From Arctopsyche grandis (Eukaryota; Arthropoda; Insecta; Trichoptera; Hydropsychidae), in NCBI RefSeq assembly GCF_051622035.1, contig NC_135358.1, positions 25,014,501 through 25,078,500 on the forward strand: 64,000 bases of DNA. The letters are read 5' to 3'. The notes below the pieces were generated by a model, which saw nothing but the letters and a program-made list of their open reading frames with translations, made no database searches and was not told the DNA's origin. Below, in pieces: positions 44,381 through 47,300 of the stretch (positions are counted from its first letter, which is position 1; each line of letters begins with the position of its first letter). Position numbers and translations under genes: made by a program.

Positions 44381-47300
44381 TTATCCATAGAATGGTTTTA
44401 TAATGTTTTTATGAACGCGTTTCAATCGGTTATTTTCGATTCGAATGGTGATGGTTTGATTATTATGTATTTCAGTAATGCGATATGGACCTTTCCAGTT
44501 CGCAGTCAGCTTCTTGTTTAATGAACGTGGTATAATATTCATTTTTAACAGTATTAAGTCATTCACTTCGTAATTGTAGTCGTGAATGTTCTTATCGTAA
44601 TTTCTTTTAGCTTGTATCTTGGCGCGAATTATGTTTTCTCGTGCAAGATTTCTTATTTTTGCTAATCTGAATTTTAACGTATTTATATATGTTCCATATG
44701 TTACGTCTGGTTCTAATTCATTCAGTGAACTAGGTAGTATTGGCGTATGTCCGAATACTAGTTCGTAAGGTGTGAATTTAGTTGCGGTATGTTGTGTTGT
44801 ATTATAACACAGCATTGCGAATGTTAATAATTCGTCCCAATTGGTATGAGTATTGTTTACAAAGTTTGTTAAATAATCTTTAAGAGTTGAATGGGATCTT
44901 TCTAAGGCTCCATTAGTTTGTGGATGGTATGCCGTAGTTTTGAAATGTTTTATTTTTAATAATTTTGTAAGTTCTTTCGTGATGTTACTTGTAAATTGAG
45001 TTCCTAAATCCGTAAGTAATGATTTCGGTATTCCGTAATGTGAGAAATGTGTGATAAGGTTAATTGCGATTGTTTCTGAATTTGTTATTTTTATCGCGTA
45101 CGCTTGAGAATATTTTGTCAAGTCATCTTGTACAGTTAGAATATATTTATTTCCCTTTTCGGTTTCGTTTAATGGTCCTACAATGTCTATGGCTATTCTT
45201 TCAAATGCCGTCGTTGATGTAGTGGTAATTTCCATTGGTGCCTTGTATTTATGTCTATCAGTTTTGTTTTTCTGACAATCAATACAGTTTTTTATATAAT
45301 TTAATATGTCGTCCTTCATATTGATCCAAATATATTTAGTTTTTATTCTAGCTAAGGTTTTCATCAATCCTGTATGTCCTGCTGTTGGAGAATTATGATT
45401 TTCCTTTAAGATGATTGGTATTTGGCTAGATGTTGGAGTTATTAATTTATTATGACATATTAGTATTTTTATGTTTGTATCTTTAAATATGAATTCAATC
45501 ATGAGTTTTATTTTAGCAGTTGACATAGTGTCATATTGATTTTGGAAATTTGCTATTGCTAATTGGTCAATGTTAAATTCGATTAATTTAATTTTTAAAT
45601 TAACTAACGTTTCGAATATTATCTTAGTTTCGGTTTTATCGAAATAGTGAACTTTAGTGAAACAGTGAAAGTATTTCCTTTTAAAATCTTTTGATTCTGT
45701 TAGTATCACATCTTTTAATTGCTTTTCTCTTTCTGATAACATTTCTTGACTGGATAAGTCTTCTAATATGGATAAACAATAAGGGTTGTTTTCATCAAGG
45801 TCTAATGATGTTGGATACGCAATATTTATATTGGTTAATAAGTATCCGTTCGTTTCCGTAACGTTTTCGTTGTTTTCGGTTGTTCCTAGTTTTATTGTTC
45901 TCATAAAGTTTTTAAAGTTAATTTCGCTAGAAGAATCTATCTCTTGTTCGTTATCTGAAGGTTGGTAATTTAATTGAATATCTGGTTCTTCATCGAACAG
46001 GTTTTCGTTGAAGTCCATGGTTTCTTCGTCAAGATCGTCTCTTGTCCGAATTAGTTCGTCTATATCAGGCGTTCTGATAGGTGATAAAAGTTCTGAGTCG
46101 TTTATCAAGTCGTAAGTTATTGGATTTACGTTAATTGGTTTTATATATAATTGTATATTTATTTCCGAGTCTCTAAATACGTATTGTATCATTTGTTTAA
46201 TTCGTTTCCATGTTAAATTATCTTCTCCACTAGCAAGTTTTGGTATAGCTAGGGTTTTGATTTTATCTTCCTTTAAAAGATCTCTAAGGTTTTTAAGCGT
46301 TTGAAAGACATTTTCATATGTCGGTTTGTCAAAGTATTTTGCTTTCGTTACTAAATGATAAATTATTTTATTCTCGAATTTTGAATGTAATATATCTGTT
46401 ATATCTCGTCTCGTATTAATTAATTCATTATAGTTTTTTATTATTCCTTTTATTTCTTCTGCAATGCCTTTAGACATTTTCAGATCTTTAGAAACGCAGT
46501 GTGCAATATTACTGTCGCTTTCTAATAATGATTTCTGTATTTCCTGCATTTTTAAATTGAGTTTAGTGTGATCATATCGTAAAAATGATTCATAGCTTTC
46601 ATTTTTGATTCTAGATAAGAAGTCTGCGTTACAGTTAATTCTTCCTTCTTTATACTGAATATCATAATCATATTCCTCTAGTCTGAGTCTCCATCTAATA
46701 AATTTAGATGTACCGGGCTTTTGCATTTCGAATAGATATCTTAAGGGTCTGTGATCGGTATAGATAGTAAACTTCCTGCCGTACAGATATGGTCTATAAT
46801 GTTCTACTCCCCAAATTATAGCTAATAGTTCTTTTTCTATAGTACTATAATTAATCTCTGCCTTGTTGAGAGTTCTAGAGCCGTAAGAGATTGGTAAGTC
46901 TTTTCCTGATTTTCCTTGGCTTAATACTGCGCCTATTGCATAGTCTGATGCGTCAGTAGTCAATATAAATTGTTGGGTAAAATCTGGGTATTGTAATATT
47001 GGAGTTGAGGTTAATTGTTCTTTAAGAGTGTCAAATGCATTTTGCTGTTCATGACCCCAATTAAATATTGTATCCTTTTTTAACAAGGTTGTTAAAGGTT
47101 TAATGGTTTTACTAAAATCTTTTATGAATTTACGATAATAACTAGCTAATCCCATGAATGATTTGATTTCCTTCGGTGTCCTAGGTTCTTGGCATTCCTT
47201 GATGCACCTAATCTTGTCTGGGTTGGGTAATACTCCCTTATCAGTTATTATATGGCCTAGATAAGCTACCTCTGTTCGTAAGAATTCGCACTTATCTGGT

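Follow-up and report, generated by a model that had tools for sequence, protein, structure and literature searches.

The window analyzed here, a stretch of 64,000 nucleotides (contig NC_135358.1, positions 25,014,501 to 25,078,500 of the forward strand), contains on its minus strand an env-bearing long terminal repeat (LTR) element. Its Pol polyprotein carries a macrodomain of the TARG1/OARD1 type between RNase H and integrase, followed by a second, degenerate copy of the same domain. An earlier inspection of the letters (the sequence-only reading) had recognized the first of these domains and overlooked the second. The features of Pol on which the argument turns are as follows, in window coordinates.

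44381..48805, minus strand: Pol open reading frame (ORF), 1474 amino acids (aa), a single open frame
46130..46558, minus strand: macrodomain 1, TARG1/OARD1 type (Pol residues about 750-892), from the OARD1 match and an AlphaFold2 model
46343..46345, minus strand: codon of Lys821, aligned with the TARG1 catalytic K84
46220..46222, minus strand: codon of Asp862, aligned with TARG1 D125
45446..45835, minus strand: macrodomain 2, degenerate copy (Pol residues about 991-1120), from hhalign to macrodomain 1 and OARD1 by profile
45260..45427, minus strand: integrase zinc-binding domain (H2C2), PF17921, 3.6e-18
44921..45205, minus strand: integrase core (rve), PF00665, 6e-08

According to Pfam matches obtained on separate pieces of Pol, the domains follow in the order RNase H, macrodomain, integrase H2C2, which is where the sequence-only reading had placed them, and its assignment to the TARG1 type is borne out by two kinds of comparison. 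In a phmmer search of 177,635 distinct PDB sequences, human OARD1 (TARG1) is the best match of macrodomain 1 (E-value 2.2e-19, 123 residues, gapless). A profile from alignment A2 (17 rows: this element, 14 retroelement relatives, and the host-type sequences P0009 and P0038) finds OARD1 at 1.1e-50, followed by the bacterial macrodomain entries 5m3i (2.5e-11) and 5m31 (8.6e-11), which are presumably DarG macrodomains. Models named for DarG also match part of macrodomain 1 (NCBIfam, 1.2e-12; PADLOC, 1.2e-12), and the NCBIfam DarG equivalog cut-off is missed (47.8 vs. 250 bits). The proposed check with the Pfam hidden Markov model PF01661 (Macro) falls short at 20.5 bits, below the gathering cut-off of 22, so that this copy would escape a Pfam scan run at curated cut-offs; it is phmmer and the profile that reach OARD1. 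Among eight relatives scanned with the same model, three pass (P0006, 28.3; P0009, 28.1; P0015, 28.6), three remain below the cut-off (P0008, P0010, and P0016), and two give no Macro row (P0007 and P0014). The AlphaFold2 model of macrodomain 1, for which A2 with its 2 host-type rows among 17 was the input alignment, has a predicted local distance difference score (pLDDT) of 90.5 and a predicted template modeling score (pTM) of 0.86. Its predicted strands (E) and helices (H) run E-E-H-H-E-E-H-E-H-E, an alternation that would be expected of a macro fold. By sequence, Pol residues about 750-892 are confirmed as a TARG1/OARD1-type macrodomain.

The survey of related Pol proteins that had been suggested finds the same insert widely: macrodomain 1 lies beside RNase H or integrase in 27 of 37 relatives. 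These 37 different proteins came from three protein searches (9, from the best 8000 candidates scored, plus 2 and 26), and because they were fetched for their resemblance to this region, shares among them are not frequencies. By phmmer with macrodomain 1 as query (E-values up to 1), a macrodomain was found in 33 of the 37 and went undetected in P0011-P0014; the carriers comprise two host-type proteins, one with the second type of copy only, three with the macrodomain ahead of the reverse transcriptase (RT), and the 27 already mentioned. Both flanks are visible in 23 of the 27, with RNase H before and integrase behind the macrodomain, while integrase is not seen in P0006, P0029, and P0041, nor RNase H in P0025. 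Named sources are Sipha flava, Cinara cedri, and Uroleucon formosanum (all Aphididae), and an F-type Env is also listed for five Uroleucon proteins (P0031-P0035). P0006 comes from a bacterial record, a metagenome-assembled genome (MAG) of Brevinema, which is regarded here as a contaminant. Between this element and P0006, macrodomain 1 is identical at 64 of 128 positions, as against 24 of 74 in the aligned linkers (Fisher p 0.018).

The domain precedes RT in P0040 (237-356, RT from 563), in P0042 (158-281, RT from 601), and likewise in P0010. Between macrodomain and RT in the latter two (P0042 333-427; P0010 176-268) lies a conserved-looking SDGNCG ... HWIPG stretch; an OTU cysteine protease, an idea formed by eye, is not supported, as the P0042 piece has no OTU match in Pfam or the PDB. 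The host-type carriers are P0038, named OARD1, from Frankliniella fusca, and P0009, which resembles DNA ligase III and contains a macrodomain. In P0009 (source ena), the TARG1-type macrodomain is located between the ligase and BRCT parts, a fusion that ties the domain to DNA ends.

Two further collections were searched. A viral contig collection yielded zero relatives with either macrodomain 1 or the RT piece, and with alignment A2 it yielded 22 loci (L001-L022), nine of which were used as an outgroup; tblastn found RT or integrase of this element's type in none of the 22. The search of genome contigs with A4 gave 190 pattern matches and zero relatives. In the viral collection, the TARG1-like macrodomains have both Lys and Asp intact in the nine translated of the 22 loci, and perhaps, as a guess, they serve as counter-defence against DarT-like enzymes.

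All of the motifs listed in the sequence-only reading, IAHCVSKD...GIAEE, IIYHLVTKAKYFDKPTYENV, PKLASGEDNLTW, and IQLYI, are present in Pol in that order, with NIAHC starting at 766, GIAEE at 780, LVTK at 818-821, and SGED at 859-862. The two residues it had singled out as catalytic also hold their places: Lys821 aligns with K84, the catalytic lysine of TARG1 (PMC8501950), and Asp862 with D125, whose change to alanine leaves TARG1 inactive (PMC5725667). Across 25 retroelement rows of macrodomain 1, among them rows at 29-47% identity to this element, the lysine is retained in 24 and the aspartate in 23, and the first position of the loop before the aspartate is glycine in 19. This count includes the element itself and P0010, P0040, and P0042 with their other layout; outside it stand P0032-P0035 (near-copies of P0031), P0039, P0041 (which stops short of the Asp), the nine rows of the outgroup, and three rows each of host sequences and of second copies.

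The second copy, just downstream, matches macrodomain 1 in BLASTP (31%, E-value 3e-14, as a single comparison) and, profile against profile, in hhalign (99.1%, E-value 1.4e-18). A three-row profile of macrodomain 2 has OARD1 chains as its sole PDB matches (4e-4), and a Pfam Macro match is absent from the macrodomain 2 piece. Judged from these alignments, macrodomain 2 is homologous to macrodomain 1 and to OARD1. It was detected, among the fetched relatives, only in this element, P0006, and P0007; in these rows the lysine is kept in 3/3 and the aspartate in 2/3, while neither the loop glycine nor the AHC histidine survives in any (0/3). Between this element and P0006, 54 of 117 positions are identical, and macrodomain 2 probably serves for binding or as a scaffold. 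No claim is made that ordinary gypsy elements have a decayed macrodomain as their RNase H-integrase linker; the linkers tested were those of P0012, P0013, and P0014 only, and the P0014 linker matched macrodomain 2 at 0.0088 in a three-sequence search, with hhalign values of 0.3% and 0.2%.

In the RT tree (28 rows; P0032-P0035 dropped, and P0024, P0025, and P0036 having too little RT), every element with a macrodomain behind RNase H groups together, along with P0014 (support 99/98). Long-branch warnings apply to P0008, P0012-P0014, and P0040, and a grouping without P0014 is not rejected (p 0.368; 22 rows vs. 6). In the macrodomain tree, a single origin of the RNase H-integrase macrodomains is likewise not rejected, but unproven (approximately unbiased (AU) test, p 0.189; 25 rows vs. 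14), and the retroelement domains stand apart from host-type sequences (91/84), of which there are three rows only. The three second copies cluster (99/99) with the macrodomain 1 sequences of this element and of P0006, so that the duplication most likely took place within this lineage. A finer branch (99/85) joins the second copies to the first copy of this element alone, though P0006 has both; a single duplication that preceded the divergence from P0006 would not produce this branch, which is tentatively put down to long branches or gene conversion between the copies, with two duplications as a further possibility. P0040 and P0042/P0010, by contrast, belong to a different RT lineage and carry the domain ahead of RT, and therefore imply either that a macrodomain was captured twice or that elements exchanged it. 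For rotifers, it has been argued that retroelements of different types exchange extra ORFs (PMC5408684), in an article whose available text does not contain the word "macro." The sequence-only reading had this retrovirus itself capturing a cellular macrodomain. Retroviral capture stands; going by the shared module and the RT tree, the capture was probably made by an ancestor common to related elements, aphid ones among them, rather than by this element.

These data are best explained (probability about 0.68) by a TARG1-type macrodomain that was ancestrally acquired by a Ty3/gypsy-like lineage and kept as a Pol module, where it would act as an ADP-ribosyl hydrolase on the replication complex. 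The proposed sequence of events is: (i) an ancestor of the lineage would have acquired the domain and retained it between RNase H and integrase; (ii) as part of Pol, macrodomain 1 would travel in the particle and in the reverse-transcription and integration complex; (iii) there it would strip ADP-ribose, added by host transferases, from nascent cDNA and its ends, from integrase or Gag, or from target-site chromatin; and (iv) in the lineage of this element the domain would have been duplicated, with loss of the AHC histidine and of the loop glycine from the copy. In the TARG1 mechanism, the aspartate aids release of the ADP-ribose. By analogy, Lys821 would bond covalently to the ribose and Asp862 would aid release, a lysyl-ADP-ribose link being part of TARG1-type catalysis (PMC8501950). 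The identity and place of the domain, its residues, the homology of the two copies, and the sharing of the module are established by the comparisons above; hydrolase activity of macrodomain 1 is likely, and cDNA or integrase as its substrate is possible but has less than even odds. TARG1 is known to clear ADP-ribose from DNA ends in a D125-dependent manner (PMC5725667) and from thymidine in single-stranded DNA in a K84-dependent manner (PMC8501950), and it also acts on Glu/Asp-linked ADP-ribose of proteins (PMC8501950; PMC5725667). TARG1 is also reported to rescue E. coli that express Thermus DarT (PMC8501950). Because single-stranded cDNA, phosphorylated ends, and integrase are all available in a reverse-transcribing complex, an eraser working on the element's own complex is the most likely role, an eraser aimed at host silencing factors less so, and a mere reader or spacer less still.

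Several observations weigh against an own-complex eraser. The aspartate is lost in 2 of the 25 rows (P0036 and P0010), P0036 also lacks the lysine, and P0039 is without the middle of the domain, including the Lys stretch (two separate phmmer matches). In this element the aspartate is preceded by A-S-G, as against G-C-G in TARG1, and P0006 retains GCG; to our knowledge, G-C-G is not a strict requirement of the family. P0007, 289/410 identical to this element over RT-RNase H, holds only the degenerate copy, and in P0014, weakly placed with this element by RT (80/89), the macrodomain is undetected. The identity of macrodomain 2 does not differ significantly from that of the linkers (Fisher p 0.07). 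A more far-reaching version, in which insect retroviruses carry a Pol-borne nucleic-acid de-ADP-ribosylase that cleans cDNA and integrase-joined ends, insect cells ADP-ribosylate foreign cDNA in defence through a eukaryotic counterpart of DarT, and copy 2 is a neofunctionalised reader, must be considered doubtful.

Among the alternatives, the one nearest to an own-complex eraser differs from it in target only, and their odds overlap: the enzyme would remove ADP-ribose from host silencing or antiviral proteins. Coronaviruses and alphaviruses have macrodomains that act against ADP-ribosylation by the host, and in mammals SIRT6 mono-ADP-ribosylates KAP1 and thereby silences L1 (PMC4695847). An accessory ORF would suit such a task better than a fusion to Pol. 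Pol is usually scarcer than Gag and largely confined to the particle, which makes it a poor agent for chromatin at large, and host proteins as the chief target are possible but not favored.

A position immediately before integrase and a tandem arrangement would also suit an ADP-ribose reader, in which the two macrodomains tether Pol and integrase to ADP-ribosylated host chromatin or sites of repair, thereby directing integration. The A-S-G loop of macrodomain 1 fits this role, and macrodomain 2 is as similar to the P0006 copy as described above despite the loss of loop glycine and AHC histidine, and may therefore be kept for a non-catalytic role. Against this, macrodomain 1 has both catalytic residues in nearly all rows, the tandem is confined to this element, P0006, and P0007 and is not general, and the comparison of macrodomain 2 with the linkers is not significant. 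Reading as the sole function is unlikely. Less probable again is a passenger relic, a captured host domain now serving as a mere spacer between RNase H and integrase: the degenerate copy 2, the absence of macrodomain 1 from P0007, the loss of both residues in P0036, and the gapped domain of P0039 are what it would predict, whereas the catalytic pair persists across rows of such low identity, the position is the same in the 23 relatives with both flanks visible, and macrodomain 1 is better conserved than the linkers. Chance resemblance, or misassembly of a host OARD1 gene with a retroelement, is practically negligible given the uninterrupted Pol frame with RNase H and integrase on either side, the strength of the OARD1 match, and the same architecture in records from several sources; the bacterial MAG origin of P0006 shows that single records can mislead, and nothing within the window supports such an error.

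Several systems already described invite comparison with this module. The human protein TARG1/OARD1 (C6orf130, terminal ADP-ribose protein glycohydrolase) is a cellular enzyme that consists of one domain; macrodomain 1 shares with it the full domain and the catalytic Lys and Asp, and differs in being an internal module of Pol that has an A-S-G loop and is followed by a degenerate second copy. The coronavirus nsp3 and alphavirus nsP3 macrodomains are likewise borne on polyproteins and thought to reverse host ADP-ribosylation, and nsp3 of some coronaviruses has a tandem of active and inactive macrodomains; these are RNA viruses, however, with MacroD-type catalysis and not the TARG1 Lys/Asp pair. 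The DarG macrodomain, whose models match part of macrodomain 1, shares the catalytic lysine of TARG1 (PMC8501950), but it is a bacterial antitoxin that removes ADP-ribose from DNA thymidine, and macrodomain 1 falls far below its equivalog cut-off. P0040 and P0042/P0010 are gypsy-type polyproteins with a TARG1-type macrodomain, though ahead of RT and in another RT lineage. Teleost epsilon-like endogenous retroviruses (ERVs) contain macro-domain ORFs (Basta et al., 2009, via the review PMC4977317); they too are retroviruses with a captured cellular macrodomain, but they are vertebrate viruses that carry it as additional ORFs, as far as one sentence of that review describes them.

The question, left by the sequence-only reading, of whether such a module had been described has a divided answer: retroviral capture of a macrodomain has the precedent in fish ERVs (PMC4977317), and among the papers listed none was recognized as describing a macrodomain in an insect gypsy or errantivirus Pol, in a search that covered mainly open-access articles and no preprints, so that an earlier description may exist. 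A 2025 article on insect ERVs in EMBO J (PMC12992720) does not use the word "macro" in its main text. The combination of domains is already on record in the name of P0024 from Cinara cedri ("Ribonuclease H-like domain,Integrase, catalytic core,Macro domain, partial"). As far as seen, four points are new: the TARG1 identity with its conserved catalytic pair, the fixed RNase H-integrase place throughout a lineage, the tandem copy in its degenerate state, and, in another lineage, a different position within the polyprotein. A domain of the ADP-ribose-eraser type is built into the polyprotein for reverse transcription and integration in an env-bearing element with identical LTRs. The near-universal catalytic pair in the lineage, and the presence of the same domain elsewhere in elements of another RT type, point to ADP-ribosylation pressure on insect LTR elements, and the shared module hints that insects may use ADP-ribosylation against them.

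The remaining features of the element are listed below.

41876..51159, minus strand: whole LTR element, 9284 bp, TG...CA ends
50548..51159, minus strand: 5' LTR, 612 bp
41876..42487, minus strand: 3' LTR, 612 bp
41872..41875, no strand: target-site duplication ATAT, left copy
51160..51163, no strand: target-site duplication ATAT, right copy
48847..49890, minus strand: Gag ORF, 347 aa, Pfam Retrotrans_gag 9.6e-08
42525..44369, minus strand: Env ORF, baculovirus F type, 614 aa, listed from TTG, PF12259 1.7e-42

The two LTRs of 612 bp each have zero mismatches, which suggests a recent insertion. Pieces of Pol match RVT_1 (9.2e-31), RT_RNaseH_2 (2.9e-40), and Integrase_H2C2 (3.6e-18), and the protease match is weak (RVP 0.0021, below the RVP cut-off). 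Upstream of the first ATG, the Pol frame remains open for 33 codons; it and the end of Gag overlap in different frames, an arrangement that would fit a frameshift. Errantivirus-like Metaviridae are characterized by LTRs, gag, a pol order of protease, RT, RNase H, and integrase, an F-type env, and a 4-bp target-site duplication. This element displays the same traits, a likeness of layout only. The sequence-only description of an env-bearing insect retrovirus agrees with the open gag, pol, and env, the insect host being suggested by a trehalose-receptor match and a relatedness to aphid elements. With the LTR and two internal pieces as queries, blastn detected no part of the window other than the element itself. 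On the inner side of the 5' LTR (below 50548, minus strand), TGGTGGCAGCGTGG, five bases from the LTR, resembles a primer-binding site; TGGTGGCAGCGTGG is taken here to be a candidate site for a tRNA ending in CCA, the type being a guess, perhaps Leu. A 112-aa open frame between the 5' LTR and Gag (50078-50416, minus strand) has no Pfam match and may be due to chance or be an upstream part of Gag. The neighborhood in the window contains C2H2 zinc-finger ORFs along with the trehalose-receptor match, and an ORF at 35939-36439 (minus strand) matches an RAI1-like nuclease (3.5e-15) over the first part of the model only.

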